Shown piece after piece: positions 4,562 through 22,919 of a stretch of DNA of 64,000 nt. Numbering within the stretch: position 1 is the stretch's first letter; every line of letters begins with the position of its first letter. The DNA is from Oxalicibacterium flavum (GTDB lineage: Bacteria > Pseudomonadota > Gammaproteobacteria > Burkholderiales > Burkholderiaceae_D). The notes beneath the pieces are model-generated. The model was not told where the DNA came from. It saw only the letters and a program-made list of their open reading frames with translations, and searched no databases. The stretch lies in contig NZ_BMCG01000003.1 in the NCBI RefSeq assembly GCF_014635065.1, positions 186,001-250,000 of the forward strand, written 5' to 3'. The translations under genes and the position numbers were made by a program.

Positions 4562-5356
4562 ATGCGCTTCATGACTCCATTCAAGCACGCCCGGAATGTT
4601 CTGATTCTTTTCCTGAGCCTGTTGGGCCTGACGCTCATGATGCTGTTCGGCTCGCCATGGCTGGCGCTGCGCTCGGCATTCATGCCGCGCTCGGAACGCC
4701 AGGCCTACGTGCGTCGTGCCATCACCACCGGCTACCGCCGTTATTTCACGACACTGCATTTCTTCAATGTCTTTCATCTCGACCTGACCGAACTCGACCG
4801 CCTGCGCGGCGACGACGGATTGATCCTGACGGCCAATCATCCGTCACTGTTCGACGCGCTGCTGATCATTTCGCGCCTGCCCAACGTGGTCTGCATCATG
4901 AAGGCGCAGGTGTTGCGCAACGTCATGTTCGGCCATGGCGCCAAGATGGCCGGCTACATTCCCAACGATTCGATCCGCAACATCGTCAACGAGGCCGCGC
5001 GCGAACTCGAGGAAGGCAGCCAGCTGCTGCTGTTTCCCGAAGGCACGCGCAGCCGGCGCGGCCGCATCAATCCGTTCCAGGGAACGGTCGGACTGATCGC
5101 GCGCCGCACCGGCTGCCCGGTGCAGACCATCTTCATCGAATCGGATTCGGGTTTCCTCGGCAAGGGCTGGCCGTTCTGGAAGGCGCCGGACTTCCCGGTG
5201 CGCATCCGCGTGCGGCTGGGGCAGCGGTTCTCTCCGGGCGACGACAGCAAACAATTCATTGCCGAACTGCAGCACTATTACGAGCAGGAGCTGGCACCGC
5301 CTGCTTGTTCCACGCATCGGGCAGACGATGCGCGCACGTCCGCATCGCGTCCATAG
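4562..5356 (+). CDS. Lysophospholipid-type acyltransferase (PlsC family) of the aryl polyene cluster
   Basis: About 264 residues. An N-terminal membrane helix (about residues 12-30) is followed by a PlsC domain with the acyltransferase motif NHPSLFD (H-x4-D, residues 92-98) and FPEGTRS (159-165). Such enzymes transfer acyl groups to lysophospholipids or related acceptors. In aryl polyene clusters they are thought to help attach the polyene to its lipid anchor at the inner membrane. The start is uncertain: ATG codons at 4559, 4562 and 4571 are all in frame and none has a clear ribosome-binding site. It is the first gene of the plus operon, 17 bp before the glycosyltransferase. Confidence 0.85.
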   Translation: MRFMTPFKHARNVLILFLSLLGLTLMMLFGSPWLALRSAFMPRSERQAYVRRAITTGYRRYFTTLHFFNVFHLDLTELDRLRGDDGLILTANHPSLFDALLIISRLPNVVCIMKAQVLRNVMFGHGAKMAGYIPNDSIRNIVNEAARELEEGSQLLLFPEGTRSRRGRINPFQGTVGLIARRTGCPVQTIFIESDSGFLGKGWPFWKAPDFPVRIRVRLGQRFSPGDDSKQFIAELQHYYEQELAPPACSTHRADDARTSASRP

Positions 5357-5373
5357 GGAACACGGAACAATCG

Positions 5374-6132
5374 ATGCAAGCATCCACCACTCATCTGGTC
5401 CTGATCCCCAGCTACAACCCTGGCGCTGTCGTCTATGAGACGGTGGCTTCCGCGCGCGCGCAGTGGGCGCCGGTATGGGTGGTGGTCGACGGCAGCACCG
5501 ACGGCACCGCCGAGCAGTTGCAGCGCATGGCGGCCGAGGACGACGGCCTGGAAATCATCGTGCTGCCGCACAACGGCGGCAAGGGCGCGGCCGTGTTGCA
5601 CGGCGTGGAGCGCGCGCTGGCGCGCGGCTTTACCCACGTGCTGACGATGGATTCGGACGGCCAGCACGATGCGGCGATGATCGCGCACTTCATGCAGACG
5701 TCCGCCGCCAATCCGGACGGGATGGTGCTCGGCGTGCCCGTGTTCGACGACAGCGCACCGAGCATCCGCGTCAAGGGCCGCAAGATTTCGAACTGGTGGG
5801 CCAACTTCGAAACGCTGGGCGGCGGTATCGGCGACTCGCTGTTCGGTTTCCGTGTCTATCCGGCGCGCGTGCTGCGCGATGTCATGCAGGGCAGCGTCTG
5901 GATGCGGCGCTTCGATTTCGATCCCGAAGCCGTGGTGCGGCTGGCCTGGCGCGGCGTGCGCCCGGTCAACGTGCCGACCAGGGTGCGCTACCTCAGCGCG
6001 GAAGAAGGCGGCGTCTCGCATTTCAATTACTGGCGCGACAACAAGCTGCTCACCTGGATGCACACGCGGCTGTTCCTGGGCTTCGTGCTGCGGCTGCCGT
6101 TGCTGATCTGGCGCAGGCTGGCCGGGCGTTGA
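5374..6132 (+). CDS. Family 2 glycosyltransferase
   Basis: 252 residues starting MQASTTHLVLIPSYNPG. This is a GT-A fold with VVVDGSTDGT near 36-45, the metal-binding DSD at 93-95 (TMDSDGQHD), and a hydrophobic C-terminal end that may touch the membrane. It has the dolichyl-phosphate-mannose-synthase/WcaA-like look of the glycosyltransferases found in aryl polyene clusters, where it probably adds sugar to the lipid anchor. Donor and acceptor cannot be read from sequence. It sits in the plus-strand operon between the PlsC-type acyltransferase and a membrane protein. The start at 5374 gives the full N-terminal beta strand; longer in-frame starts overlap the preceding gene. Confidence 0.88.
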   Translation: MQASTTHLVLIPSYNPGAVVYETVASARAQWAPVWVVVDGSTDGTAEQLQRMAAEDDGLEIIVLPHNGGKGAAVLHGVERALARGFTHVLTMDSDGQHDAAMIAHFMQTSAANPDGMVLGVPVFDDSAPSIRVKGRKISNWWANFETLGGGIGDSLFGFRVYPARVLRDVMQGSVWMRRFDFDPEAVVRLAWRGVRPVNVPTRVRYLSAEEGGVSHFNYWRDNKLLTWMHTRLFLGFVLRLPLLIWRRLAGR

Positions 6133-6218
6133 AAAAAGAACGGTTTGCCATTTGGCTTTGCCTTATACTGCCTCTCTTTTTCGCGTAAGCCATTGATTTT
6201 CCTGGGATCAATCCGTCC

Positions 6219-6887
6219 ATGTCCGTCGTCAAGATCGTCCTGACCGTTCTCGCCATCGCGGCCTATGTGGCTCTCAGCCACGCGGCGCTGGTGATCGAGG
6301 ATGCCTTCAGCATCTGGCGCCAGCTGGCGGTCCTGATGCTGATCGTGCCGATCGTCGGGTTTGCGTGCTGGGGCGTCGTCATGGCGATCCGTTCGGCCGG
6401 TTTCGGCCGCGCGCTGCAACTGGCCGGCGGCGGCGCGGTGGCGGCCTTTTCCGTTTGGCTGACTGCCGACTTCTGGGTCACGCTGCTGACGCGGCTCGAC
6501 TGGATCTACCTGATCCAGCACGTGGCCGCCAATTCCATGCTGTGCTGGTTCTTTCTGCAGACGCTGTACGGCGGACGCACGCCGGCCATCACCACCATCG
6601 CGCGTACCATCCACCCCGACATGCCGGACAGCGTGGCGCGCTACACACGCAAGGTCACGGTTGCGTGGTCCGTCTTCTTTGCGCTGCAGGTGCTGGTGTC
6701 GCTGGCGATCTTCTACTTTGCCTCGATCGAAACCTGGTCGATGTTCGCCAACGTGCTGAACTGGCCGATGATCATCCTGATGTTTGCCGGCGAGTACGCC
6801 TGCCGCAAGCGCTGCAACCCGGATTTCAGGCATGCGACGATACGCGAGAGCGTCTCGGCCTATCTGAACAGCAGAAACAAGATATGA
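6219..6887 (+). CDS. COG4648-like membrane protein of aryl polyene clusters
   Basis: 222 residues with about six hydrophobic segments (roughly 4-26, 34-56, 66-88, 95-115, 146-168, 175-192) and a short basic tail. It resembles the uncharacterised integral membrane protein regularly found in aryl polyene loci next to the acyltransferases. No catalytic motif is visible. Its stop overlaps the next start by 4 bp (ATGA), so the two are translationally coupled. A role in membrane assembly or transport of the pigment is inferred from position only. Confidence 0.78.
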   Translation: MSVVKIVLTVLAIAAYVALSHAALVIEDAFSIWRQLAVLMLIVPIVGFACWGVVMAIRSAGFGRALQLAGGGAVAAFSVWLTADFWVTLLTRLDWIYLIQHVAANSMLCWFFLQTLYGGRTPAITTIARTIHPDMPDSVARYTRKVTVAWSVFFALQVLVSLAIFYFASIETWSMFANVLNWPMIILMFAGEYACRKRCNPDFRHATIRESVSAYLNSRNKI

Positions 6888-7885
6888 CCAACATGCAGCT
6901 CGATTCTTCCGACTCCAAGCGGGTCGCGCCGGCCAAGCCTGTCAGCCAGGCGGACGCCGGGCCGCAGGACGCCGCCGCCCAGGACTGGACCGCCAGAAAG
7001 GAGCGCGGTTGCCTGGCTGCGCTGCGCGTGATGGCATGGATCGCCCGCACCTTCGGCCGCACGGCGTCGCGCCTGGTGCTGTATCCGGTCACGCTCTATT
7101 ACGTGTTGACCGCGACCGACGCTTGCCGCGCGTCGCGCGCCTATCTGTCGCGCGTGCATGGCCGCCCGGCGCGCTGGCGCGAGGTGTTCGGCCACGTGCA
7201 CGCGTTTGCCAGCGTGGTGCTGGACCGTGTCTATTTCCTGCTCGGCCATGGCGAGAAGTTCGACATCCGCGTCGTCAGCGATGCCTACATGGAATCCGAT
7301 GTCGCCGAGCGCGAGGAGGGCGTGTTCCTGATGGGCGCGCACATGGGCAGCTTCGAAGTGGTGCGCATGATCTCGCGCAAGCACGATTCGCTCAAACTCG
7401 TGCTGCTGATGTACGAGGAAAACGCGCGCAAGATCGGCGCGCTGCTGTCGGCCATCAATCCCGATGCGCAGCAGGAGATCGTCCCGCTCGGCAACCTGTC
7501 TGCCATGTTGACGGTCAAGGACCGGCTGGCGCAGGGTGCGCTGGTCGGCGTGCTGGCCGACCGTTCGCTCGGCCAGGAAAAGATCAGCATGCTGCCCTTC
7601 CTCGGCGTGCCGGCGCCGTTCGCGCAGGGACCGTTCCGCATGGCCGCCATGATGCGGCGCCCGGTCTATCTGATGATGGGCCTGTACCTGGGCGGCAACC
7701 GCTACGACATCCACATCGAACGCATCGCCGACTTTACCGATGCGCCGGACGGCACGCGCCGCAACCGCGAGGAGCAGGTCAACGCGGCGATGGCGCATTA
7801 CGTCTCGCGCCTCGAGCATTTCGCGCGCCTGGCGCCGTTCAACTGGTTCAACTTCTACGACTTCTGGCAGGGGAACGACCGATGA
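6884..7885 (+). CDS. LpxL/HtrB-type lipid acyltransferase
   Basis: 333 residues. The core fits the lysophospholipid acyltransferase (LpxL/LpxM) superfamily: VFLMGAHMGSFEVV carries the H-x4-E acyltransferase motif (HMGSFE). ADRSLG lies further on, and the C-terminus PFNWFNFYDFWQ is typical of these enzymes in aryl polyene clusters. The first 50 residues are polar and low complexity, then a hydrophobic stretch follows around 60-75. It probably acylates the glycolipid or polyene at the inner membrane. It overlaps both neighbours by ATGA, so translation is tightly coupled. Confidence 0.86.
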   Translation: MTNMQLDSSDSKRVAPAKPVSQADAGPQDAAAQDWTARKERGCLAALRVMAWIARTFGRTASRLVLYPVTLYYVLTATDACRASRAYLSRVHGRPARWREVFGHVHAFASVVLDRVYFLLGHGEKFDIRVVSDAYMESDVAEREEGVFLMGAHMGSFEVVRMISRKHDSLKLVLLMYEENARKIGALLSAINPDAQQEIVPLGNLSAMLTVKDRLAQGALVGVLADRSLGQEKISMLPFLGVPAPFAQGPFRMAAMMRRPVYLMMGLYLGGNRYDIHIERIADFTDAPDGTRRNREEQVNAAMAHYVSRLEHFARLAPFNWFNFYDFWQGNDR

Positions 7886-9534
7886 GCGCGCAGCCGTCCG
7901 CACGGTATGACGTCGTCATCATGGGCGGAGGGCTGGCCGGCCTGACCCTGGCGTTGCAGTTGCGCCAGCGCTTTGCAGACCTGGCGATTCTCGTCATCGA
8001 GCGCCGCGCGCATCCGGTGCCGGCCGCCGCGCACAAGGTCGGCGAATCCTCGGTCGAGATCGCCGCGCATTATTTCGATACCGTGCTCGGGCTGAAGGAC
8101 CACCTGGAAACCGAGCAGTTGAAGAAGTTCGGCTTCCGCTTCTTCTTTTCCGACGGCCGCCGCGACCTTGATCGCGTGACCGAACTCGGCGGCAGTCACG
8201 TGCTGCCGACTTCCTCGTACCAGATCGATCGCGGCATCTTCGAAAATCGCCTGGCGGAGATGGCGGCCGAGCGCGGCGTGCATTTCGTTGATGGTGCGGT
8301 GATCCGCAGGTTCGAGATCGGTGACAAGGACGCATCGCATCGCATCGCCTACGAAGCCGATGGCCATGCCGTCGAGGCCGACGCGCGCTGGCTGGTCGAT
8401 GCCTCGGGACGCGCCGGCCTCGTCAAGCGCAAGCTCGACCTGGCGCAGGACAATGCGCATCGCGCGGGTGCAGTATGGTTCCGCATCGGCAGGCGCATCG
8501 ACGTGCACGACTGGTCGCAGGATACCGAGTGGCTAAGCGCCTGTCAGCCGCCGGATCGCTGGCGCTCGACCAATCACCTGGTCGGCGAGGGCTACTGGGT
8601 GTGGCTGATTCCGTTGTCGTCGGGCTCGCACTCGGTCGGCATCGTGGCCGATGCCGATCTGCATCCGGTCGAGAACATGAACACCTTCGACAAGGCGATG
8701 GACTGGCTGAAGATCCATCAGCCGCGTCTGCACGAACACCTCGACGCCGAACGCGCGCAGTTGCAGGACTTCGCCTTCTTCAAGCGTTTTTCCTACGGCT
8801 GCAAGCGCATGTACGACGGCGAGCGGCGCTGGGCGCTGACCGGCGAGGCCGGCGTGTTCCTCGATCCCTTCTATTCGCCCGGCAGCGATTTCATCGCCAT
8901 CGGCAACACCAATATCGTCGAACTGATTGCGCAGGATCGCGCGCGCGGCCCGGTCGTCATGATGGCCGACTACTTCGAGCAGATCTATTTCTCGCTCTAC
9001 GAATCCATGCTGCCGGTCTATCTCGACCAGTATCCGCTGTTCGGCGATCCGGAAGTATTGCCGCACAAGGTGTCGTGGGATTACGCCTATTACTGGGGCG
9101 TGATGTGCCTGCTGTTCTACCAGGACCGGCTGACCGACCTGGTCGTCATGGGCCGTCTGCAGCCGAGGCTGATGCACATGCAGAAGGTGAACGGCGCGAT
9201 CCAGGCCTTCTTCCGCGCGTGGAGCAGGCACAGCGCGCGCCGCAATCCGTCGCGGATGCTGGACCAGACGCAGCTCGACTGGTTTGCCGAACTCAACCGC
9301 GGTCTCAAGGACGAGCTCGACGCCGCGCAGTTCATGCAGCGCATGGACGACAACCTGATGCTGCTGCAGCGGCTGGCGCTGGCGATCATGGAACTGGCCT
9401 GCGGCGATCATTCGCAGCTGCGCGATGAAGTCGAATACGCAGCGCTGCATGCGTTGCTCGATCATGCCGCCTTGTCGGCACGGCAGGAGCCGGCCCCCAT
9501 GCTGTTTTCCAGCCCGATGGCGTGCGCCACATGA
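7882..9534 (+). CDS. Flavin-dependent halogenase-like oxidoreductase 1
   Basis: 550 residues. The FAD-binding GGGLAGL lies at 15-21. The protein carries GESS (54-57), a lysine in KKFGFRF (K82) where flavin halogenases keep their catalytic Lys, the WxWxIP motif as WVWLIP (239-244), and FLDPFYSPG near 325, fitting the F-x2-P-x2-S-x-G pattern reported in halogenases. It is longer than the second flavoprotein of the cluster, with a helical C-terminal extension (about 400-550). It may halogenate, hydroxylate or reduce the polyene or its aryl head. Sequence alone cannot decide, and motif-bearing relatives without halogenase activity exist. ATGA overlaps couple it to both neighbours. Confidence 0.82.
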   Translation: MSAQPSARYDVVIMGGGLAGLTLALQLRQRFADLAILVIERRAHPVPAAAHKVGESSVEIAAHYFDTVLGLKDHLETEQLKKFGFRFFFSDGRRDLDRVTELGGSHVLPTSSYQIDRGIFENRLAEMAAERGVHFVDGAVIRRFEIGDKDASHRIAYEADGHAVEADARWLVDASGRAGLVKRKLDLAQDNAHRAGAVWFRIGRRIDVHDWSQDTEWLSACQPPDRWRSTNHLVGEGYWVWLIPLSSGSHSVGIVADADLHPVENMNTFDKAMDWLKIHQPRLHEHLDAERAQLQDFAFFKRFSYGCKRMYDGERRWALTGEAGVFLDPFYSPGSDFIAIGNTNIVELIAQDRARGPVVMMADYFEQIYFSLYESMLPVYLDQYPLFGDPEVLPHKVSWDYAYYWGVMCLLFYQDRLTDLVVMGRLQPRLMHMQKVNGAIQAFFRAWSRHSARRNPSRMLDQTQLDWFAELNRGLKDELDAAQFMQRMDDNLMLLQRLALAIMELACGDHSQLRDEVEYAALHALLDHAALSARQEPAPMLFSSPMACAT

Positions 9535-10388
9535 AGAACGCCTCCACCATTGCCGCGCGCCGCTGGCAGCCTAGCCCCTTCCTCATGGCATCCGCCGTGC
9601 TGCACGTCGGCGCTGCCGCGTCCGCGATTGCCTGGCCGGGCACCCTGGGTTGGAGCGTTGCCAGCGTGATCGCCAACCATGCCGCCATCACGGCGATCGG
9701 CCTGTGGCCGCGCAGCGTGCTGCTGGGACCGAACGTGCTGCGCCTGCCGGATGGGCGTGCCGAGATTGCCGTCACCATCGACGACGGCCCCGATCCCGAG
9801 GTCACGCCGCGCGTGCTCGATCTGCTCGCCGAGCACGGCGCCACGGCCACCTTCTTCTGCATCGCCGACAAGGTGCGCGCGCAGCCGGCGCTGGCGCGCC
9901 GCATCGTCGAGGCCGGCCACACGATCGAGAACCACAGCATGCTGCATCGCCATTATTTCTCGGTGCTCGGCATGCGCGGCATGCGGCGGGAACTCGAACA
10001 GGCGCAGCAGGTCCTCACCGAGGTGACCGGGCGCGTGCCGCGGTACTTCCGCGCGCCGGCCGGTCTGCGCAATCCCTTCCTCGATCCGGTGCTGCATGCG
10101 CTGGACCTGAAGCTCGTGAGCTGGACGCGGCGTGGTTTCGATACGCGCGTCGGCGATGCGCAGCGCGTCACGCAGCGGCTGCTGAACGGCCTGCGCGGCG
10201 GCGACATCCTGCTGCTGCACGACGGCAATGCGGCGCGCACGGCGCAGGGCCGGCCGGTGATTCTCGAAGCGCTGCCGCGTGTGCTAGCAGCGGCGAGCGC
10301 GCAGGGATTGCAATGCGTGACGGTGGAGCAGGGCCTGCGCGATCGGCGCGCATCAGAACACGATACGCACGATATACAAGATACATAA
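9531..10388 (+). CDS. NodB-type polysaccharide deacetylase, membrane-anchored
   Basis: 285 residues. Two hydrophobic segments (about 18-36 and 42-60) precede a NodB homology domain: TIDDGPD at 82-88 (catalytic Asp and metal Asp), H-x3-H at 135-139 (HSMLH), RAPAG further on, and LLLHDG as the last motif. The family removes N- or O-acetyl groups from polysaccharides or glycolipids with a divalent metal. The start at 9531 overlaps the preceding stop (ATGA) like the other junctions of this operon; an in-frame ATG lies 9 bp earlier. Its place inside an aryl polyene operon suggests trimming of the sugar-bearing anchor, which is inference. Confidence 0.87.
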   Translation: MKNASTIAARRWQPSPFLMASAVLHVGAAASAIAWPGTLGWSVASVIANHAAITAIGLWPRSVLLGPNVLRLPDGRAEIAVTIDDGPDPEVTPRVLDLLAEHGATATFFCIADKVRAQPALARRIVEAGHTIENHSMLHRHYFSVLGMRGMRRELEQAQQVLTEVTGRVPRYFRAPAGLRNPFLDPVLHALDLKLVSWTRRGFDTRVGDAQRVTQRLLNGLRGGDILLLHDGNAARTAQGRPVILEALPRVLAAASAQGLQCVTVEQGLRDRRASEHDTHDIQDT

Positions 10389-10407
10389 GGGGACACGGTC
10401 CGACCGT

Positions 10408-11613
10408 ATGCAAACACTCGAACTCCGTCATTACACGCTCTCGACCTGCCTCGGACTCGGGCGGGATGAAAACTGGGCCAGGCTGGCCGCGCGCGAAGGC
10501 AATCTGAAGCCCTGCGATTTCGAAACCGTGAACCTGCCGACCTGGATCGGCGAGGTGCGCGGCGTCGATGACGTGGCCCTGCGCGCGGCGCTGGCCGACT
10601 TCGACTGCCGCAACAATCGCCTGGCGCAGCTCGCGTTGCAGCAGGACGGGTTTGAGGAAGCGGTGCGCGCGGCGATCGCCGAATTCGGCGCCGACCGCAT
10701 CGGCTGTTATCTGGGCACCAGCACCTCGGGCATCCTGCAGACCGAACTGGCGTATCGCCGTCGCGAGCCTGACGCCGATGGCAATCCGGGTGTCTTACCG
10801 GCCGATTTCCGCTACGCCGAAACGCACAACACCTATTCGGTCGCGGCCTTCGTCGCCGCCTATTTCGGCCTGACCGGACCGGCGCTGACCGTGTCCTCCG
10901 CCTGTTCGTCGAGCGCCAAGGTGTTCGGCAATGCGGCGCGCATGATTGAAGCCGGTTTCATCGACGCGGCGGTGGTCGGCGGCGTCGATACACTGTGCCT
11001 GACCACGCTCTACGGTTTCAATTCGCTGCAGCTGCTGTCGCCGGAACCGGCGCGTCCCTATGGCGAAGGCCGTCAGGGCATTTCGATCGGCGAGGGCGCG
11101 GCCTTTGCGCTGCTGGTCCGGGCGCCGGCGCAAGCCACCAGGGGCAGCGTGCTGTTGTGCGGCGTCGGCGAATCCAGCGATGCGCATCACATGTCGTCAC
11201 CGCATCCGGAAGGACTGGGCGCGCAGATGGCGATGAAGGATGCGCTGGCTTCGGCCGGTTTGACTCCGGAAAGCATCGGCTACATCAATCTGCATGGCAC
11301 CGCCACGCCGAGCAATGACGCCGCCGAAGGCAAGGCCGTGCACGCGGTGTTCGGCAGCAGGACGCCCTGCAGTTCGACCAAGGGCGCAACCGGTCACACG
11401 CTGGGTGCGGCCGGTGCGGTGGAAGCGGCGATCTGCGCGATGGCGATGACGCACGACGAACTGCCGGCCGGCATCAACACCACGAAGGTCGATGCCGAAC
11501 TGCAGGTCGATTACCTGCTCGAGAATCGCCCTGCGCAGATCGACTACGCGCTCAACAATTCATTCGGCTTCGGCGGTTCCAACTGCAGCCTGGTACTGGG
11601 AGTGGTGCGATGA
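10408..11613 (+). CDS. Beta-ketoacyl-ACP synthase (aryl polyene ketosynthase)
   Basis: 401 residues with a complete thiolase-fold ketosynthase active site: C166 in SSACSSS, H296 in NLHGTATP and H330 in GATGHTLGAAG. It condenses malonyl-ACP with the growing aryl polyene chain. The next gene overlaps by ATGA and encodes a homologue that lacks the triad, so the two should form a ketosynthase/chain-length-factor heterodimer, as in type II polyketide synthases and characterised aryl polyene systems. The family is certain; exact substrate is inferred from context. Confidence 0.93.
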   Translation: MQTLELRHYTLSTCLGLGRDENWARLAAREGNLKPCDFETVNLPTWIGEVRGVDDVALRAALADFDCRNNRLAQLALQQDGFEEAVRAAIAEFGADRIGCYLGTSTSGILQTELAYRRREPDADGNPGVLPADFRYAETHNTYSVAAFVAAYFGLTGPALTVSSACSSSAKVFGNAARMIEAGFIDAAVVGGVDTLCLTTLYGFNSLQLLSPEPARPYGEGRQGISIGEGAAFALLVRAPAQATRGSVLLCGVGESSDAHHMSSPHPEGLGAQMAMKDALASAGLTPESIGYINLHGTATPSNDAAEGKAVHAVFGSRTPCSSTKGATGHTLGAAGAVEAAICAMAMTHDELPAGINTTKVDAELQVDYLLENRPAQIDYALNNSFGFGGSNCSLVLGVVR

Positions 11614-12404
11614 ACGCGCGCGTGCATATACAGGCGGTCGGCGTGATCGGCCCCGGCGCCGGCAACTGGCAGGAATGGGCGGCGCTGCTGCAGGCCGAGG
11701 CAAGTTACGTGCGCAACGCGACCGTGGTGCCGGCGTTGAACGCGCTGCCGGCCGCTGAACGCCGCCGCACCGGCGCCGGTGTCAAGCTCGCGCTGGCCTG
11801 CGGTATGGAAGCATTGCAGAACGCCGGCGTGGCGCCGGCCGAGGTGACCACCGTGTTCTGTTCGTCCGGCGGCGATGGCGAGAACTGCCACATGATCTGC
11901 CAGGCACTGGCTGGCAGCGACCGCCTGATCTCGCCGACGCGCTTTCACAACTCGGTGCATAACGCGCCGTCCGGCTACTGGGGTATCGCCAGCGGCGCCA
12001 TGCTGCCGTCCACCAGCCTGTGCGCCTACGACGGCGGTTTTGCCGTCGGCCTGCTCGAGGCGGCGGTGCAGGTCGCGGTCGAGCAGCGGCCGGTACTGCT
12101 GGTCGTCTATGACACGCCGTATCCCGAACCCTTGCATGCGACGCGACCGCTGGCCGATCAGTTCGCGGTCGCCATGCTGCTGACGCCGCAAGCAGCGGCG
12201 AACGGTCTGGGCAGCATTGCACTGGCGCTGGACGACGCGGCGCAGACTGCGATGCAGCATGCGGACCTCGAAACCGTGCGGCGCGGCATTCCGGCGGCGC
12301 GCAGCCTGCCGCTGTTGCGCGCGCTGGCGACAAGGCGGCAGGAGGATGTGCAGCTCGAATACGTCAACGGCCGCACGCTGCGGGTGGCATATGCGCCGGC
12401 ATAG
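11610..12404 (+). CDS. Chain-length-factor-like ketosynthase partner
   Basis: 264 residues, shorter than a full ketosynthase. The thiolase fold is recognisable (TGAGVKLALACGMEAL, FHNSVHNAPSGYWGIASG, AYDGGFAVGLLEA), but there is no nucleophilic cysteine in the usual SACS context and neither of the HGT and GHT histidine motifs. This is the pattern of the non-catalytic partner encoded next to the ketosynthase in aryl polyene clusters, thought to help set chain length. It is the last gene of the plus operon and is followed 30 bp later by a strong hairpin terminator. Confidence 0.87.
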   Translation: MNARVHIQAVGVIGPGAGNWQEWAALLQAEASYVRNATVVPALNALPAAERRRTGAGVKLALACGMEALQNAGVAPAEVTTVFCSSGGDGENCHMICQALAGSDRLISPTRFHNSVHNAPSGYWGIASGAMLPSTSLCAYDGGFAVGLLEAAVQVAVEQRPVLLVVYDTPYPEPLHATRPLADQFAVAMLLTPQAAANGLGSIALALDDAAQTAMQHADLETVRRGIPAARSLPLLRALATRRQEDVQLEYVNGRTLRVAYAPA

Positions 12405-12434
12405 GGGCGACGTGCAGCGGGTTTCGTGAATTTT

Positions 12435-12465
12435 AAAAAAGCCGTCGTGATGCGACGGCTTTTTT
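12435..12465. terminator. Bidirectional terminator between pigment operon and chorismatase gene
   Basis: A6, then GCCGTCG (12441-12447), loop TGATG, CGACGGC (12453-12459) and T6: a perfect 7-bp stem with A and T tracts on both sides, placed between two convergent genes. A second, weaker structure (AGACC at 12515-12519 pairing GGTCT at 12537-12541, followed by T6) lies 50 bp further on and may back up plus-strand termination. Confidence 0.85.
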
Positions 12466-12564
12466 ATCGCCGGGCCGTCCCAAGATAAAAAGCGTCCCCT
12501 TGGGGGACCAGGCAAGACCGTAGGGCTCGACCGAGAGGTCTTTTTTATGTGCGAAGCGGAATGG

Positions 12565-13563: not shown

Positions 13564-13657
13564 GAAATGATCGGCGTGATGGGTAACGTGATGAAGCGCG
13601 GTGATCGTGATGGCGATTCTGATCGATGATCGTGCCGGAGCGGCATGATGCTGCTCT

Positions 13658-13677: not shown

Positions 13678-13680
13678 ATG

Positions 13681-14457: not shown

Positions 14458-14491
14458 TGTCGAGCACACCCATTTCAGACGGAGCCTGGGC

Positions 14492-15844: not shown

Positions 15845-15850
15845 TCCGCA

Positions 15851-15878
15851 AAAAAGCGCCCGCAGCAGCGGGCGTTTT
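15851..15878. terminator. Bidirectional terminator between halogenase-like gene and ketoreductase
   Basis: A-rich run, then CGCCCGC (15857-15863), loop AGCA, GCGGGCG (15868-15874) and T4. A perfect 7-bp GC stem between convergent genes. Confidence 0.85.
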
Positions 15879-15896
15879 GCATTGGATCGGCGCGGA

Positions 15897-16616
15897 TCAG
15901 ATCATGCCGCCGTTGATCGAAATCACCTGTCCAGAAATATAGGCGGCCTGCTCGGATGCGAGGAAGGCCACCAGGTCGGCCACTTCCTCGGGTTTGCCGA
16001 CGCGCTTCATCGGTACCATGCTCTGCACCAGCTTGTCGTCGAATGCCTGCTCGATCATGTCGGTGGCGATGATGCCGGGCGCCACCGCGTTGACGGTGAT
16101 GCCGCGGCTCGCCAGTTCGAGCGACAGCGACTTGGTGGCCGAATGCAGCGCGCCCTTGGCGGCCGAGTAGTTGACCTGGCCGCGGTTGCCCGCCAGTGCG
16201 GCGACCGAGGAAATGTTGACGATGCGGCCCCAGCGCGTGCGGATCATCGGCATCGTCAGCGGCTGGGTCACGTTGAAAAAGCCGTGCAGGTTGACGTCGA
16301 TCACGTCGTGCCATTGCCTTGCCGACATGCCCGGGAACACGGCGTCGTCGTGCATGCCGGCATTGTTGACGAGCACCTGGATGGTGCCGGCCTGCGTCAG
16401 CTGTTCGAGTGCCGTTTGCGTCGCTTCGGCATCGGTGATGTCGAATACCGCCACTTCCGCGCTGCCGCCGGCGGCAACGATGTCGTCGCACACCTGCTGT
16501 GCCTTGTCACGGTTGCGGTTGGCGTGCACGATCACGTGCAGGCCGTCGGCGGACAGGCGCCTGCAGATGGCGGCGCCGATGCCGCCGCTGCCGCCGGTCA
16601 CGAGTGCGCGTTTCAT
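15897..16616 (-). CDS. fabG: 3-oxoacyl-ACP reductase of the aryl polyene cluster
   Basis: 239-residue short-chain dehydrogenase with the NADP(H) motif TGGSGGIG (7-14), NNAG (84-87) and the triad S137, Y150, K154 (YSAAK). It reduces the beta-keto group after each condensation. It is the last gene of the minus-strand pigment operon, 10 bp after the hotdog dehydratase. FabG-like reductases with this placement (ApeQ type) serve polyene formation; housekeeping FabG activity cannot be excluded, but no other fatty-acid synthase gene is nearby. The C-terminus SGQVISINGGMI is typical of the family. Confidence 0.92.
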   Translation of the reverse strand: MKRALVTGGSGGIGAAICRRLSADGLHVIVHANRNRDKAQQVCDDIVAAGGSAEVAVFDITDAEATQTALEQLTQAGTIQVLVNNAGMHDDAVFPGMSARQWHDVIDVNLHGFFNVTQPLTMPMIRTRWGRIVNISSVAALAGNRGQVNYSAAKGALHSATKSLSLELASRGITVNAVAPGIIATDMIEQAFDDKLVQSMVPMKRVGKPEEVADLVAFLASEQAAYISGQVISINGGMI

Positions 16617-16626
16617 GCGTGTCTCC

Positions 16627-17094
16627 TTATCTGTTGTCGAGCGCCGTGGCGTCGATGATCACGGTGGCGCGGCCGTCGAGCAAATCCCTGCCGCTCGCGC
16701 TGCGCACGGCGAACTGGTAGAGGATGCAGTTGGGCTCGCCGTGCATGAGCGTGACCTCGATGGCCAGCGCTTCGCCGATGTCGTCGAGCCGCGCCACGTG
16801 CAGGGTCGTGTTGCGCACGCTGGCGAGGAAGCCGGCACGCGGCCGCTCGGCAACGGCGGCATCGGCTTGCGTGGTGCCGAGCAGCGCCGTGTGCACCGCC
16901 ATCGCCTGCGCCGCATACTCGATGCCGTTGGCGGCACCGAGCCGGCCGTCGGCGCGCAGCGGATTGTCGGGCGACAGGTGGCTGGTCGCCACCGCCTTCA
17001 TGCCCTGCGCATCCCATTCCGCGACATGATCGAGCAGGCACATGCTGCCCTGGTGCGGGATATGGGCCAGCATCCAGTCGCGATCGACGCTCAT
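16627..17094 (-). CDS. Hotdog-fold 3-hydroxyacyl-ACP dehydratase (ApeP-like)
   Basis: 155 residues. IPHQGSMCLLD places a histidine at 14, and ANGIEYAAQAMAVH places E59 on the central helix, the two expected catalytic positions of a hotdog dehydratase. It lacks the HFPG-x-PxxPG motif seen in the second dehydratase of the cluster (20911-21201). Aryl polyene systems use two different dehydratase subunits, reported to act together, so these two are probable partners. The gene lies between the methyltransferase and the ketoreductase with 10-bp gaps on both sides. Confidence 0.86.
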   Translation of the reverse strand: MSVDRDWMLAHIPHQGSMCLLDHVAEWDAQGMKAVATSHLSPDNPLRADGRLGAANGIEYAAQAMAVHTALLGTTQADAAVAERPRAGFLASVRNTTLHVARLDDIGEALAIEVTLMHGEPNCILYQFAVRSASGRDLLDGRATVIIDATALDNR

Positions 17095-17104
17095 GCGGTT
17101 TCCT

Positions 17105-17869
17105 TCATGTAGTTTCTTTCAGCTTCCGACAGACCAGCAGGATGTTGGCGAACGGCGTGCCTTCGTTCATCGGCATTGCCTGCACCGAGAAGCCGATGGC
17201 AGCAATCGCGCCTTGCCAGTCGGCGATGCTGCGGCAGAAGGTCGGCAGCGTGCGGTGGCCGCGTATGCTGGTGACCACGTTATCGACCCAGTTGCTGAAG
17301 CGGAACGGCAGGCCGCCGGCCGCGTCGCCCACGCGCAGCAACAGCACGCCATCGTCGGAAAGACAGGCATGCACGCGGCGCAGCACGTCGTCCTGTGCCG
17401 GGAAATCCACGTAGTGCAGCACGTCGAGGATGACGACGGCGTCCGATGCGGGAAAGGCGGCGGTGCACATGTTGGCGGCTTCGAAGCTGGCGCGGCCGGC
17501 AGCAGTTGCCTGATTGTTCAACGCCGCCTGCGCGCGTTCGACGTCACGCGGCATGAGTTCGATGCCGTGGATGTGCGCGATGGCAGGCGGCGCCGGCCAG
17601 TCGGACGGCCAGTCGCCGCGCGCATGTTGAGCCTGCGCCGACAACAGCCACGACGACAGCAGACCCTGGCCGCAACCGATGTCGAGCACGCGGATTCCCG
17701 CATCGCGCTGGATGTGCGGGCTGCCTTGCAGCAGGCCGCGCGCCAGCATGCCCTTGAAGACCGGGTCGCGGCCGAGCTTGCCCTGCGCGAAATGCCAGGC
17801 AAACCTGCCGGCGGCGCGATAGGGCTGGCAGGCGGCGGTCAACAGATTGCGGATCGCGTTGTTACTCAT
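17105..17869 (-). CDS. SAM-dependent methyltransferase
   Basis: 254 residues, class I fold. Motif I is VLDIGCGQGLL near 61-71, followed by IHGIELMPRDVERA (acidic loop) and AVVILDVLHYVDF (motif IV region). The C-terminal part is typical of small-molecule methyltransferases. Its start overlaps the MMPL stop by ATGA. Characterised aryl polyene clusters often contain a methyltransferase acting on the aryl head (O- or C-methylation), which is the likely role here. The acceptor cannot be read from sequence. Confidence 0.86.
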   Translation of the reverse strand: MSNNAIRNLLTAACQPYRAAGRFAWHFAQGKLGRDPVFKGMLARGLLQGSPHIQRDAGIRVLDIGCGQGLLSSWLLSAQAQHARGDWPSDWPAPPAIAHIHGIELMPRDVERAQAALNNQATAAGRASFEAANMCTAAFPASDAVVILDVLHYVDFPAQDDVLRRVHACLSDDGVLLLRVGDAAGGLPFRFSNWVDNVVTSIRGHRTLPTFCRSIADWQGAIAAIGFSVQAMPMNEGTPFANILLVCRKLKETT

Positions 17870-20337
17870 GGAGTTCCTGTGGAGCGGGAAGAGTCATGGG
17901 AGGCATTCGCGGCGCGCGGACGCAGGCTGCCGGAGAACACGGCGGCGTACAGCAGCGCCAGGATCACGCCGATGCCGACCGTCTTGCCGATGGCCGACAG
18001 GATCGGCACGCTCGAAAAGCCAAGCACGCCGAAGCCGATCACCGTGGTGACGTTGGCGAACACCAGCGAAGCCAGCGTGGTCGGGGCGATGGCGGTCGGG
18101 TTGCCGTGTTCATCCTTGGGCGGCTGCGCAAAGAACAGCGCGTAGTTGGAACCGACCGCGACGATCAGCAGCAGGCCGACCAGATGCAGGATGGTCATGC
18201 GCTCGCCGGTGGCGGCGAAGAAGGCCGCCACGCTGAGCACGGCGATCACCAGCGGAATCATCACGCGCGCCAGGCCGGCGGCCGAGCGGATCGTGAAGCC
18301 GAGCATGATCGTCATCGCCAGCATGCCGTACAGCGCCAGCAGCACGGCTTCGTGCATGTAGCCGTTGTAGAGCTTGTCGGTCTCGGCCTTGAGGTCGATG
18401 AAATAGACGCGCTCGACGCCCGAGCGCGCGAGCTCGGCGCGCATGCGCTCGGCATCGATCACATGTTCGGCGTTGGCGGTCAGCGGCAGCAGCGCGGTGG
18501 CGACGTCCTTCTGTTCGATCAGCAGTGCATCGGTCGCCATTGCCATCGAGGTGCCGGCCAGATCCTTGCGCGTCAGCAGGCGCTGTTCGCGCGTCTGTTC
18601 GTCGGCATTGACGCGCGCCAGTGCATCAACCGAGGAAACGAAGGGTGCCAGCACCGAAGTCTGCACTGGCAGGTCCTGCACCGCCTGGCCCAGGCGTGCC
18701 TGCAATTGCTCGGCGGAGGGCAGGCTGGCCAGACGTACGCGTTGCGCGGCGCGGCTGGGCAGGTATCGCGTCGGCGTTTCGTAGGCGGCAAGCTGTCCTT
18801 CCTCGACCAGCGTATCGAGGCGCGGCGCGACTTTCTCGGCGGCCTGCAGCACGTCTTCCAGCGACTTGCCCTTGACCACCACCAGATAGCGCACGTCGGG
18901 CGCACCGATATCCTTGCGCAGCTTCTCGTCGAGGTCTTTGTCGGCCTGGCTGACGGGGCTCAGTGCACCCAGTTCCGCCTGCCACAGTTGATCGCGCTGC
19001 AACCACAGCGTGGCACAGGCGAGGGCGAAGATCAGCAGCAGTATCCAGCGCAGCTTCTGCAGGAAATCGATGGCGCGCTGTACCGTGCGGCCGACATGGC
19101 TGAGATCGCGCACCACGAACTCGCGCGGCAGCAGCGACGGCAGCACGTAGCGCGTGACGAAGGCGGCCGAGATCAGCCCGGCGATCGTATACAGGCCGAG
19201 TTGCGCGAGCCCGGGGAAGCCCGAGAACAGCAGTGCGCCGAAGCCGGCCATGGAGGTCAGCACGCCGAGCCGAATCGTTGGCCACGACTTGCGCGCCCAT
19301 TCGGCGCTGTTGCGCGCGCTGCCGGACTGGATGAACAGGTAGATCGCATAGTCGATCGCTTCGCCGATCATGGTGGTGCCGAAACCGAGCGTGATCGCAT
19401 GCACCGTGCCGAAGCCCAGACTGACCGCGACCGTGCCGGCCAGGATGCCGCTGAGGACAGGAGCCAGGCCGAGCAGTACCGCCATGCCTGAGCGGTAGGT
19501 GAAGAACAGCAGGCCCATGATCAGCGTGGCGCTGGCGATGGCGAACAGGCTGGCTTCGGTGGAGATCGTGTTGCGCGCGTTGACGCCGAACACGCCGGGA
19601 CCGGTCAGGATCAGCGACGCGCTGGATGCGGCTGCATGTTGCTTGCCGACTTCCGCCCTGGCGCGCTCGAACTTCTCGCGGATGTGGTTGATCGCCGCTT
19701 CCTGCGCATCGGTGTCGGAACCGAGCGCGCGCGTCTGCGCCAGCAGCAGGGCGCGGCTGCCGTCGCGCGCGACCCAGATGCCATGCTGCTTGCGCGGCTG
19801 CTGGCCGCTGTTGAACTGGGCGATCAGCGTCGCCATCTCGCCGGTCGGGTCCTGCGGCAGGATGTCCTTGACCAGCAGGCCGGCCGGCGAGGCCAGCAGG
19901 TCGATGGTCTCGCCGATCGCCGTGTGCAGGCCTTCCGTGCCGAAGTGGTCGGGCGTGACGGCCGGGCTCAGCAGATAGCGGTTGTTGAACAGATAGGCGT
20001 GGTCGGCTTCCTGGTTGACGGGCTCGCCGTTGTTGACGGAGATGAACTCGTCGTTCTCGCGCATCTGCTTCGCCAGCGAGCGCGACAGCGCGGCGCGCGC
20101 CTGCGGATCGGCGCCCTCGATGCCCATCAGGATCATGCGCGACACCATGCCGTCGCGCAGCTGCTCGACCAGCAACTGCTGTTCCTCGGTCGGGTCCTTG
20201 GGCAGGAAGGCCGTCAGGTCGGCCGTGAAGGTGGTGCGGAACAGCACGCCGATGCCGAGCAGCGCCACCAGCAGCCAGACGCAGATGGCGGTCCAGGCGC
20301 GCGGCGGGGCGCCGTTCTGCATCGCCGGCTTGTTCAT
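17866..20337 (-). CDS. MMPL/RND-type exporter of the aryl polyene cluster
   Basis: 823 residues with the classic two-times-six transmembrane layout: one helix at about 15-33, a large periplasmic loop, five helices (about 255-400), a helix at about 425, a second periplasmic loop and a final helix set (about 690-800). The pore-type motif EAIDYAIYLF lies near 325 and its counterpart VGSNYALFFAQ near 730. Such COG4258-like exporters occur in nearly all aryl polyene loci and are thought to move the lipid-linked pigment across the inner membrane. It overlaps the LolA-like gene and the methyltransferase by 4 bp each. Confidence 0.9.
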   Translation of the reverse strand: MNKPAMQNGAPPRAWTAICVWLLVALLGIGVLFRTTFTADLTAFLPKDPTEEQQLLVEQLRDGMVSRMILMGIEGADPQARAALSRSLAKQMRENDEFISVNNGEPVNQEADHAYLFNNRYLLSPAVTPDHFGTEGLHTAIGETIDLLASPAGLLVKDILPQDPTGEMATLIAQFNSGQQPRKQHGIWVARDGSRALLLAQTRALGSDTDAQEAAINHIREKFERARAEVGKQHAAASSASLILTGPGVFGVNARNTISTEASLFAIASATLIMGLLFFTYRSGMAVLLGLAPVLSGILAGTVAVSLGFGTVHAITLGFGTTMIGEAIDYAIYLFIQSGSARNSAEWARKSWPTIRLGVLTSMAGFGALLFSGFPGLAQLGLYTIAGLISAAFVTRYVLPSLLPREFVVRDLSHVGRTVQRAIDFLQKLRWILLLIFALACATLWLQRDQLWQAELGALSPVSQADKDLDEKLRKDIGAPDVRYLVVVKGKSLEDVLQAAEKVAPRLDTLVEEGQLAAYETPTRYLPSRAAQRVRLASLPSAEQLQARLGQAVQDLPVQTSVLAPFVSSVDALARVNADEQTREQRLLTRKDLAGTSMAMATDALLIEQKDVATALLPLTANAEHVIDAERMRAELARSGVERVYFIDLKAETDKLYNGYMHEAVLLALYGMLAMTIMLGFTIRSAAGLARVMIPLVIAVLSVAAFFAATGERMTILHLVGLLLIVAVGSNYALFFAQPPKDEHGNPTAIAPTTLASLVFANVTTVIGFGVLGFSSVPILSAIGKTVGIGVILALLYAAVFSGSLRPRAANASHDSSRSTGTP

Positions 20338-20918
20338 GGGTTCAGCTTCTCGATGGTCATGACCGAGCGGTCGCCGTCGGCCTGCAGCACTTCGACTTCA
20401 CGCACCACGCCTTCGCTGCCGCCAAGGGTGATGTGCTCGACCTTCTGGCGCGCCTCGAAATTGCTGGGCGTCAGTTGCAGCTTCCAGCCGGCGCGCGTGC
20501 CGCTGAGCTTGACCACGTAGTTGAGTTCGAGCGAGCGGCGGTCGCCGGCCAGCGTGGCGCGTATGCTTTCGATCAGCGTCGCGAATTCCGGCGAATCGTC
20601 GAGATCGATCGCGAACTTGTGCTTGCCGCGTTCGAGCGTCAGCATGTTGCGCTCGAGGCGCATGCTTTCGGGCTTCGGTTTGAGCGTGCGTTTCTCGAGC
20701 CGGTCCGGCGGCGAATACGAGAGTTCACCCGAGGATTCGACCGGGCGGTCGAGCGTGGAGATGTATTTCTTCTCGACGAAGCGGGCCTTGGACGGGCCGG
20801 TCTGCGCAAGGCTGGCGGTCAGCTGGCCGAGATCCCATTCGGCCGCATGCGTGAAGCCGCTCGTCAGGATCAGGATGGACGCACCGATCGCGTGTCGCAG
20901 GCGGGAAAATTTATGCAT
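20334..20918 (-). CDS. LolA-like outer membrane lipid carrier
   Basis: 194 residues from the ATG at 20918, chosen because GGAG lies 7 nt upstream and the protein then begins with a clean signal peptide (cleavage after about residue 25, THA/AEW). The mature part fits the LolA/LppM fold, with ARFVEKKYI near its start and SGELSYSPPDRLEKRT after it. It probably carries the pigment lipid through the periplasm after MMPL export. The start overlaps the end of the dehydratase gene by 8 bp and the stop overlaps MMPL, so the chain is tightly coupled. Confidence 0.87.
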   Translation of the reverse strand: MHKFSRLRHAIGASILILTSGFTHAAEWDLGQLTASLAQTGPSKARFVEKKYISTLDRPVESSGELSYSPPDRLEKRTLKPKPESMRLERNMLTLERGKHKFAIDLDDSPEFATLIESIRATLAGDRRSLELNYVVKLSGTRAGWKLQLTPSNFEARQKVEHITLGGSEGVVREVEVLQADGDRSVMTIEKLNP

Positions 20919-21201
20919 GAAAGGCTCCGGAAACGGCGACATGGCCGGCGTCGAGGATGTCGAAGCGGATGTTGCCGCTGTCGCTGGTTTCGTATTGCAG
21001 GGTCAGTTCGGTATCCGGCATCACCGGACGCAGGAACTTGACGTTGTTGAGGCGGCAGCCGGCAGGTTCGCGTTGCAGATGGCTGGTGATGGCCGTCAGC
21101 GCGAGGTCGAGCAGCACCACGCCCGGCGTGATCGGCATGCCCGGAAAGTGGCCGGCAAAGGCAGGATGATCGGCTGCGATGTGCAGCGCAATGGTCTGCA
21201 T
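20911..21201 (-). CDS. FabZ/FabA-like hotdog dehydratase (ApeI-like)
   Basis: Only 96 residues, a small single hotdog domain. HFPGMPITPGVVLLD (about 18-32) is the catalytic-His/FPG motif of FabZ-like dehydratases, followed by VKFLRPVMPDTELTL. It would dehydrate beta-hydroxyacyl-ACP intermediates, probably as a heterodimer with the other cluster dehydratase at 16627-17094, as described for ApeI and ApeP. Start and stop overlap the ligase (TGATG, 1 bp) and LolA-like gene (8 bp). Confidence 0.85.
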   Translation of the reverse strand: MQTIALHIAADHPAFAGHFPGMPITPGVVLLDLALTAITSHLQREPAGCRLNNVKFLRPVMPDTELTLQYETSDSGNIRFDILDAGHVAVSGAFHA

Positions 21202-22628
21202 CAGCCGGCCTCCGGCAGGGAACGATGAGTGAGCGACTGTGCGAGTTCGGCCAGTGCCGCCTGCGGCAGCTTGCCGGTGGCATTGCGCGGCAGCGCCGCG
21301 ACCTTGTGCAGCGGCCGCGGCATGAAGGCGGCATCGATGCGCGTGCGCAGCGCGGCCAGGATGTCCGCCGGCTCCAGCGTGGGCGCAACGACGAAGGCCT
21401 GCAGGCGCGTGACCTCGCCCGAGGTCTTTTCGGGCGGCATGTAGAACACGCCGTCCTCGACGCCCGGAATCGCGTTCAGGTGGTGGTTCAGATAGGCCAG
21501 CGAACTGCGCTTGCCGGCGATGTTGATCATGTCGGCCATGCGGCCGTGCAGCAGGAAGCGCTGGTCGCCGGTCAGTTCGATCGCATCGTTCATCGGCATC
21601 GCGGCTTCGACGTGGCCGCCGCTGATCCACATGCGTTCGTCCTGCGGGTTGTTGGCGTCGCGCTGCATGCACACGCCCGGAAACAGCGTCCACTCCTGCG
21701 ACTGCGTCGGCCGGCGCGAGGCGATCTGGCCGGTTTCCGTGCTGCCGTAGATTTCGAGCAGCGGCGCGTCGAAGGCCTGCTCGGACTGCAACGCCAGTTG
21801 CGGCGACAGCGGCGCGGTGGCCGACACCAGCAGCGCCACCTCAGGCAGCGGTGCCGGCATCGCCAGCAGCTGGCGCAGGTGGACCGGCGTGGTGACCAGC
21901 ACGCGCGGCGCCGGCACGCGCTGCAGCGCGGCGCAGATGTCGGCTGGATAGAACCACGGCGAGCTGTCGAGCGCAAAGCCGTTCACCAGCGGCATCAGTA
22001 CCGTCGATTCGAACCCGTACATGTGCTGCGGCGGCACGGTGCCGACGATGGTGCAGGCGCTGCCCGCAGACAGTCCCAGTTGCTGCGCTTCGGCCTGCAC
22101 GTTGCGCACCAGCGCGCCCCAGGTCTTGCGGTGCGCGACCGGCACGCCGGTGGAGCCGGAGGTGAAGACGTAGGCAACCGTCTGCGCGGGATCGAGCTGC
22201 GGGACTTCAAACCGACCGGCGTCATCGCCGCCAGGGACGGCATCCGGAAAATGCATGCGCGGCAGCGCGATCGTGCATTGCGTCTGGTCGGTCAGGCAGC
22301 AGGCGTCGGGTGCGAACAGCTGCAGCTGGCGGATCGTCTCCGGCGTGCGTGTCGAGGGCAGCAGGTTGATCTTGCCGGCAACCATGATCGCGCACAGCGT
22401 CACCAGGAAACGATAGCGGTCGTGGCAGTCGTTGAGGATATGGGTCGAGGCCGGCAGCAGCGGCACCAGCCGCCGCACGTCGGCCAGGAAAGCCGCCGCC
22501 GTGACCGCACCTTCCTCGCGCCAGGCGACGATCTGCGTCGGCACGGCATGCGGGAGGAGTGGAACGGGCCGGTGCGACAAGGTCGGGGGCGCGCATTCCT
22601 GTCTGTCGGTGTACGGCATGCGCGACAA
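21201..22628 (-). CDS. AMP-dependent acyl/aryl-ACP ligase
   Basis: 475 residues of the ANL adenylate-forming superfamily: P-loop TSGSTG at 156-161, EIYGSTETG mid-protein, HGRMADMINIAGKR hinge region and the catalytic lysine K453 in RNATGKLP. The family activates a carboxylic acid as adenylate and loads it onto CoA or a carrier protein. Adjacent ACP and chorismatase genes suggest that the substrate is a hydroxybenzoate and the acceptor the ACP at 22632, as with ApeH. It follows the ACP gene by 3 bp. Confidence 0.9.
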   Translation of the reverse strand: MSRMPYTDRQECAPPTLSHRPVPLLPHAVPTQIVAWREEGAVTAAAFLADVRRLVPLLPASTHILNDCHDRYRFLVTLCAIMVAGKINLLPSTRTPETIRQLQLFAPDACCLTDQTQCTIALPRMHFPDAVPGGDDAGRFEVPQLDPAQTVAYVFTSGSTGVPVAHRKTWGALVRNVQAEAQQLGLSAGSACTIVGTVPPQHMYGFESTVLMPLVNGFALDSSPWFYPADICAALQRVPAPRVLVTTPVHLRQLLAMPAPLPEVALLVSATAPLSPQLALQSEQAFDAPLLEIYGSTETGQIASRRPTQSQEWTLFPGVCMQRDANNPQDERMWISGGHVEAAMPMNDAIELTGDQRFLLHGRMADMINIAGKRSSLAYLNHHLNAIPGVEDGVFYMPPEKTSGEVTRLQAFVVAPTLEPADILAALRTRIDAAFMPRPLHKVAALPRNATGKLPQAALAELAQSLTHRSLPEAG

Positions 22629-22631
22629 GGC

Positions 22632-22919
22632 TCAGGAGGTCTTGTGGGCGGCGATATGGTCGGACAGCGAACGCAGCGAGGCGAAGATCTTCTGGTTGTC
22701 TTCGTGATCCGCACGCAGCTGGACGCCGTAGTTTTTCGACACCACCAGCGCGACCTCGAGGATATCGATGGAGTCCAGTCCCAGACCGTCGCCGTACAGC
22801 GGTTCGTCGGGCGCGATGGAAGCCGGATCGGTGTCGAGGTTGAGCGCGTGCACGATGAGGCTGGCTACTTCCAGCATGAAGGCCGGATCGGCGGAAATGT
22901 TGTTGTCTGGATTCGTCAT
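22632..22919 (-). CDS. Acyl carrier protein
   Basis: 95 residues. The 4'-phosphopantetheine attachment serine is S50 in GLGLDSIDILE. The DSI context and the acidic helices are typical of ACPs from aryl polyene loci. It is the first gene of the minus-strand operon and carries the starter and growing chain. Many aryl polyene clusters have two ACP genes in tandem; I see only one here. A minus-strand TATAAT sits about 30 bp upstream of the ATG. Confidence 0.9.
   Translation of the reverse strand: MTNPDNNISADPAFMLEVASLIVHALNLDTDPASIAPDEPLYGDGLGLDSIDILEVALVVSKNYGVQLRADHEDNQKIFASLRSLSDHIAAHKTS

Follow-up and report, generated by a model that had tools for sequence, protein, structure and literature searches.

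A probable XanB2-type aryl polyene cluster between ptsN and queF

We examined a 64,000-nucleotide window from the genome of Oxalicibacterium flavum (3.2 Mb in nine contigs) and found that the 19 genes filling positions 4562-22919, between ptsN and queF, read from their sequence as what is very probably a complete-looking aryl polyene (APE) pigment cluster of the XanB2 type, resembling the xanthomonadin and arcuflavin clusters; its product would be yellow and membrane-anchored. Most of the genes have counterparts in clusters already described elsewhere among bacteria, and the cluster is real and conserved, adding a betaproteobacterial representative to the XanB2-type APE group. All 19 genes occur in identical order in four other genomes of the genus (loci L005, L006, L007 and L049), which argues that the cluster is more than a chance assembly. 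Its nearest named relative, judged by the chorismatase (62% identity), is found in the same-genus genome of Oxalicibacterium faecigallinarum CCM 2767 (L005; classified in the Oxalobacteraceae, Burkholderiales). A first-pass annotation had proposed a xanthomonadin-like APE cluster outside Xanthomonas, and the gene families and this relative bear the proposal out.

The genes expected of an APE cluster are present, namely a ketosynthase (KS) with a chain-length-factor-like partner (CLF), an aryl-acid ligase, an acyl carrier protein (ACP), a ketoreductase (KR) and dehydratases (the second assigned via synteny), together with an MMPL/RND exporter, a LolA-like carrier and acyltransferases. A XanB2-type chorismatase, scoring under the cut-off of its NCBIfam subfamily model, lies inside the cluster. 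Eight plus-strand genes (4562-12404, the first starting at 4562) and eight minus-strand genes (22919-15897, the ACP gene starting at 22919) face each other around a trio of XanB2 (minus), a lipoprotein hydrolase (plus) and the flavoprotein Flavo2 (plus). The annotation had described this layout as two facing operons around a three-gene core, and we recovered both it and every gene type named across 4562-22919 from Pfam matches and motifs, again with synteny for the second dehydratase. The hydrolase it named carries the lipobox LTAC and GxSxG. The top solved relatives of the KS and the CLF-like protein are two chains of one PDB entry, 6qsp, which we take to be the Xenorhabdus ApeO:ApeC complex.

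Observation here covers genes, families, motifs and conserved order; catalytic steps, function, and the halogenation and glycolipid anchor that the annotation suggested as possible are proposed from homology. XanB2 would convert chorismate to 3-hydroxybenzoate (3-HBA), the ligase would load 3-HBA onto the ACP, and chain extension by KS-CLF, the ketoreductase and two dehydratases would yield a conjugated polyene. Ring or chain would be altered by the methyltransferase and by one flavoprotein or both, and the two acyltransferases, glycosyltransferase and deacetylase may join the polyene to a lipid that possibly carries an amino sugar. The Xenorhabdus APE lipid reportedly contains a galactosamine-phosphate-glycerol unit, which would suit a glycosyltransferase and a deacetylase. 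On the model proposed for E. coli (PMC8253772), the MMPL and LolA-like proteins would carry the pigment to the outer membrane, where it could shield against light and oxidants.

Several points weigh against so full a reading. Schoner et al. state that the product of XanB2-type enzymes is not predictable from sequence (PMC3949708). No pigment of the genus Oxalicibacterium is reported among the literature matches listed. The LolA-like gene is dispensable for pigment production in Lysobacter (PMC3691225), so the LolA part of the proposed route is weak. XanB2 scores 241 bits against NCBIfam TIGR04444, under the cut-off of 325; Pfam and NCBIfam scans gave no match for the membrane protein at 6219..6887 or for the second dehydratase at 16627..17094; and thioesterase models found no match among the cluster proteins in the family scans.

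Gene content shared with known pigment clusters

The closest in content are the arc loci of Azoarcus sp. BH72, which make arcuflavin and include the halogenase ArcA, the chorismatase ArcB and the PS-deacetylase ArcN; mutation of either locus abolished colour, and 3-HBA is produced by ArcB and activated by ArcT (PMC3949708). Compared by gene table rather than by sequence, the arc loci account for the roles of 16 of the 19 genes. The three left over are the lipoprotein hydrolase, the membrane protein and one of the two halogenase-like genes (PMC3949708). Shared with arc are XanB2, a halogenase, ligase, KS, CLF-like half, KR, two dehydratases, ACP, methyltransferase, deacetylase, two acyltransferases, glycosyltransferase, LolA and exporter (PMC3949708). 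Azoarcus differs in having two loci, one listed halogenase and a product joined to a dialkylresorcinol, whereas here there is one locus with two halogenase-like genes.

With the Xanthomonas pig cluster, compared by gene content and not by sequence, the window shares a halogenase, XanB1 ('putative reductase/halogenase'), XanB2, AMP ligase, ACP, dehydratase, acyltransferases and exporter (PMC3838355). Xanthomonas belongs to a different class in the NCBI taxonomy, and its XanB2 is reported to feed ubiquinone, whereas ubiC is present here. The annotation had called the combination of XanB2-type chorismatase, two halogenase-like flavoproteins, deacetylase and lipoprotein hydrolase unusual. XanB2 chorismatase, halogenase and deacetylase stand together in the arc table, with 16 of 19 roles named, and the Xanthomonas cluster has XanB2 with two halogenase-like genes, and we therefore reject the idea of an unusual gene set. 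Among 20 loci of named relatives (at most 10 kb on each side of XanB2, some shorter), the deacetylase was matched in 16 and the lipoprotein hydrolase in 11.

The name 'pteridine-dependent dioxygenase' is an old one for the XanB2 family. Lysobacter enzymogenes has an ORF5 of that name and shares KS and CLF-like ORF16, KR, two dehydratases, ACP and exporters, but unlike here the cluster as described has no halogenase (PMC3691225); the Figure 5 legend of that report notes that other genomes carry halogenase genes near the KS pair. Mutating KS, ACP, KR or the CLF-like protein in Lysobacter led to loss of the pigment (PMC3691225). With E. coli ape the window has in common ligase, KS/CLF, KR, two dehydratases, ACP, LolA-like protein, RND transporter, acyltransferases, a COG4648 protein and methyltransferase, whereas its Table 1 lists no XanB2, halogenase-like protein or deacetylase, and the starter is 4-hydroxybenzoate (4-HBA) from UbiC (PMC8253772). 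Xanthomonadin-type pigments outside Xanthomonas are non-brominated in Lysobacter (PMC3691225) and Azoarcus (PMC3949708) and dibrominated in Steroidobacter. The present cluster was absent from the literature matches listed on APE with galactosamine and on the genus and family.

One site, several cassettes

We surveyed the slot between queF and ptsN (window positions 4257-23113) in 13 genomes of the genus, locating queF in 12 and hprK in 13; the loci compared include L050, L066, L067 and L068. A full cluster occupies the slot in five genomes (G000, G006, G012, G003 and G009) and a reduced one in a single genome, G010. In the latter, neither LPLAT1, Flavo1, Flavo2 nor the methyltransferase was matched at the site; Flavo1 and Flavo2 also had no match genome-wide at E 1e-10, while the methyltransferase and LPLAT1 were sought at the site only. 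G007 holds a two-gene remnant, probably a relic, in which the open deacetylase and membrane-protein frames stand alone in full-cluster orientation (L067, 1574-3144). The slot is empty in 4 of the 13 genomes, directly seen in G008 and judged in G002, G005 and G011 from a queF-hprK distance of 768-770 bases, which leaves room for ptsN alone. In G004 queF was not found, and its slot state is uncounted.

A different, compact APE cluster fills the slot in G001 (L066, 2456-12594). Its KS is 51% identical to the window KS, below the value for Methylotenera KS (62-63%). XanB2, Flavo1 and Flavo2 were not found in that genome, and deacetylase, hydrolase, LPLAT1 and methyltransferase had no match at the site. 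A first KS tree, built from 26 rows and rooted at the midpoint, placed G001, flagged as a long branch, outside the XanB2-type KS rows with support 100/99, while a clade of all seven genus rows was not rejected in a first test, which had no outgroup and contained long Crenobacter and G001 branches (approximately unbiased test, p-AU 0.286). The KR tree joined G001 to Crenobacter and G405 on unstarred branches, not clearly apart from the genus. In the MMPL tree (no outgroup) a single unstarred branch (89/94) already set the seven genus rows apart from the rest, with a G001 branch of 4.88. These two trees leave the affinity of G001 undecided. With gammaproteobacterial rows and the genome's own FabF as outgroup and Crenobacter removed, the KS of G001 fell outside the XanB2-type rows, and a clade joining it with the six XanB2-type KS was rejected, at a p-AU of 0.0038 that needs care, as the test was designed after the earlier trees and FabF sits on a very long branch.

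On these sequences the G001 cluster is probably not orthologous to that of the window, which suggests replacement of a pigment cassette at this site. The simplest reading of the slot is cassette replacement at a fixed site together with repeated loss. The main interest lies in this natural set of trimmed, different, decayed and missing versions at one site, which offers ready comparisons for tailoring enzymes. The pigment core of G010, at the same site and with no flavoproteins or methyltransferase there, makes its pigment chemistry directly comparable. The pigment of G010 would be predicted to lack halogen and, barring a methyltransferase encoded elsewhere, O-methyl as well.

Two halogenase-like flavoproteins

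The annotation had credited two flavoproteins with halogenase motifs, and this proved correct: both match Trp_halogenase, and the motifs are invariant in the aligned sequences. These are K82, W239-x-W241-x-I243-P244 and F326-x-D-P-x-x-S-x-G in Flavo1 (11 of 11 aligned sequences) and K89, W231-x-W233-x-I235-P236 and F314-x-D-P-x-x-S-x-G in Flavo2 (12 of 12), which we take to be halogenase signatures. The Flavo1 of L006 and a remote Flavo2-like gene of L046 were left out of the respective alignments, and both retain the motifs. The window therefore holds what the genes of a brominated xanthomonadin should include, a halogenase-like gene with the lysine and W-x-W-x-I-P. By sequence search Flavo2 is closest to ChlB4 (E 1.5e-60), followed by other halogenases including PltA. 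Flavo1 is more distant (PltA, E 1.9e-17 by sequence and 1.1e-30 by family profile), and the two families align across 305 columns (profile comparison, probability 99.8). Structure prediction of Flavo1 with AlphaFold, based on four sequences, reached a mean pLDDT of only 45, and the model was not used.

Flavo1 is of further interest as a rare, XanB2-linked halogenase-like family. Of 369 genomes of the class, eight carry it at E 1e-20, counting the window's own, a number that may miss cases, with at most three candidates scored per genome. XanB2 was found in 66 of the 369, among them all eight with Flavo1. Without the window's genome the co-occurrence is 7/7 vs 58/361 (p 4e-6), and when only one member of a same-genus pair is kept it is 6/6 (p 2e-5), both p values ignoring relatedness among genomes. 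XanB2 is often distant from Flavo1, lying on a separate contig in G400, G077 and G297. Flavo1 adjoins a CLF match in five of seven loci (L042, L045-L048); in L043 a glycosyltransferase match sits between them, and on the 4.5 kb contig L044 nothing but Flavo1 was matched. Among the 20 named loci, viewed over the same span around XanB2, Flavo1 appears only in the three of this genus and Flavo2 in nine. Flavo2 directly precedes XanB2 in seven loci (L008, L009, L010, L018, L022, L023 and L053), the same order as arcA-arcB by locus number in Azoarcus (PMC3949708). We also observed a distant Flavo2-like flavoprotein (31%) at G007:C23:185223-186371, elsewhere in the genome that holds only the cluster remnant.

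It is a serious possibility, somewhat short of an even one, that both flavoproteins work on the ring or polyene as monooxygenases or dehydrogenases, and that the pigment carries methyl groups but no halogen. Solved halogenases are only distant relatives of Flavo1, as its PltA score indicates, and non-halogenase flavoproteins (e.g. 3nix) match both proteins; against this, Flavo2 is closest to ChlB4 and other halogenases, and the lysine and W-x-W-x-I-P, taken as halogenase signatures, are invariant in both families. In Azoarcus, XanB2 has a halogenase gene next to it and the pigment is nevertheless non-brominated (PMC3949708), although a bromide-poor medium may account for that. A bolder scheme, which we hold as doubtful, would make Flavo1 a polyene-chain halogenase of a separate clade tied to XanB2 pigments and Flavo2, beside XanB2 in many clusters, an aryl-ring halogenase, giving a dihalogenated, methylated xanthomonadin; the queF-ptsN slot would then be an exchange site where cassettes with or without such steps are swapped, trimmed and lost. 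No assignment of the enzyme placing halogen on xanthomonadin appeared among the literature matches listed, a small part of that literature.

The role of XanB2 and the starter unit

We found ubiC in all 13 genomes of the genus and XanB2 in six, the window's own included, so XanB2 is not required there as the sole source of 4-HBA, and that role is ruled out. In Xanthomonas, XanB2 is reported to supply both pigment and ubiquinone (PMC3949708). With ubiC present, XanB2 here is probably dedicated to the pigment alone. XanB2 is also the least conserved cluster protein relative to O. faecigallinarum (62%, others 67-87%). It scores lowest too in L006 (61%), L007 (56%) and L049 (57%), so faster change suffices to explain the low identity and we dropped the idea of a recent import.

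Two other products were weighed against a 3-HBA-based xanthomonadin-like pigment. A 4-HBA-based APE as in E. coli, with XanB2 in another role such as making a diffusible signal, is improbable. The genome's ubiC should keep 4-HBA on hand, and both acids are reported products of Xanthomonas XanB2 and were given by ArcB in E. coli cultures (PMC3949708), but XanB2 sits inside the cluster in five full and one reduced same-genus versions, the APE cluster without XanB2 (G001) probably belongs to another lineage, and the Azoarcus pigment incorporated fluorinated 3-HBA and not fluorinated 4-HBA (PMC3949708). Less credible still, to the point of being hardly worth entertaining, is an arcuflavin-type hybrid, an ester of the polyene with a dialkylresorcinol whose genes would lie at another site in the genome. 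The likeness to the arc loci, whose hybrid pigment draws on dar genes elsewhere in the Azoarcus genome (PMC3949708), speaks for it; against it, the DarB model matched best at a KASIII gene with 33.2 bits (cut-off 550), the other KASIII gene scored 22.8 bits, and sub-cut-off matches also appeared in 9 of 14 control genomes. As no DarB-type dialkylresorcinol synthase exceeded the cut-off in the genome (DarA was not sought), a hybrid is probably not made, and we reject it within the limits of that search.

Features of the cluster and its surroundings

Some gene assignments carry further detail. The top NCBIfam match of the glycosyltransferase is polyprenyl-phospho-GalNAc synthase (56.7 bits, far under the 370-bit cut-off), and the deacetylase carries NodB-like motifs. 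The KR passes the cut-off of one FabG model and falls under that of flexirubin FlxB, the LolA-like carrier matches the flexirubin LolA2 model under its cut-off, and the ligase matches an NCBIfam 4-coumarate ligase model (E 8.9e-38), also under cut-off. The first dehydratase, scanned against Pfam in a longer frame than the final 96-aa call, passes FabA (30.8 bits, cut-off 23) and fails the ApeI-like model (25.1, cut-off 28.5). For the frame at 16627..17094, synteny with arcI is the sole ground for the dehydratase label. The membrane protein is probably, on synteny and a presumed COG4648 label, ApeG/COG4648-like. If that label is right, it would match E. coli ApeG (PMC8253772).

Table 1. Features of the cluster and its flanks (window coordinates)
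Feature	Position	Strand	Evidence
ptsN, left slot edge	3768..4256	-	Pfam PF00359 E 3.9e-31
PlsC-type acyltransferase (LPLAT1)	4562..5356	+	Pfam PF01553 E 1.4e-17; kept in four full-cluster relatives
Family 2 glycosyltransferase (GT2)	5374..6132	+	Pfam PF00535 E 1.1e-20
Membrane protein	6219..6887	+	Homologues adjoin ACP and ligase genes in L014, L023, L053, L066
HtrB-type acyltransferase (LPLAT2)	6884..7885	+	Pfam PF03279 E 1.1e-7
Flavo1, flavin-dependent halogenase-like protein	7882..9534	+	Pfam Trp_halogenase; PltA E 1.9e-17
NodB-type polysaccharide deacetylase	9531..10388	+	Pfam PF01522 E 2.4e-29
KS, active-site Cys166	10408..11613	+	Pfam PF00109/PF02801; 6qsp_A E 2.1e-78
CLF-like KS half	11610..12404	+	Pfam PF13723 E 3.8e-33; 6qsp_B E 8.4e-15
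Terminator-like stem and T run, 3' of KS-CLF	12444..12459	+	Pattern scan only
XanB2-type chorismatase (FkbO/Hyg5-type)	12565..13563	-	Pfam PF21168 E 2.3e-37; solved FkbO 4bps E 8.3e-52
Lipoprotein alpha/beta hydrolase	13678..14457	+	Pfam Esterase E 3.6e-5; lipobox and GxSxG
Flavo2, flavin-dependent halogenase-like protein	14492..15844	+	Pfam Trp_halogenase; ChlB4 E 1.5e-60; chosen start
KR, SDR	15897..16616	-	Pfam PF00106 E 1.1e-57
Second dehydratase (ArcI-like), by synteny	16627..17094	-	Adjoins KR and CLF in relatives, like Azoarcus arcI
S-adenosylmethionine (SAM)-dependent methyltransferase	17105..17869	-	Pfam PF13489 E 1.1e-11
MMPL/RND-type exporter	17866..20337	-	Pfam PF03176 E 4.8e-16
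LolA-like carrier	20334..20942	-	Pfam PF19574 E 4.7e-20
First dehydratase (FabA/FabZ-like), 96 aa	20911..21201	-	Pfam FabA
Aryl-acid AMP ligase	21201..22628	-	Pfam PF00501 E 1e-18; start 22628 or 22619
ACP, Ser50	22632..22919	-	Pfam PF00550 E 8.7e-7; NCBIfam NF006617 over cut-off
queF, right slot edge	23114..23953	-	Pfam QueF_N E 8.8e-45

Promoter-like sites were not above shuffled sequence (2 vs 2.8). Beyond queF, window positions 26445-30443 encode a 1332-aa protein in which FAD-linked oxidase and cysteine-rich domains are fused with DUF3683 and DUF3400.

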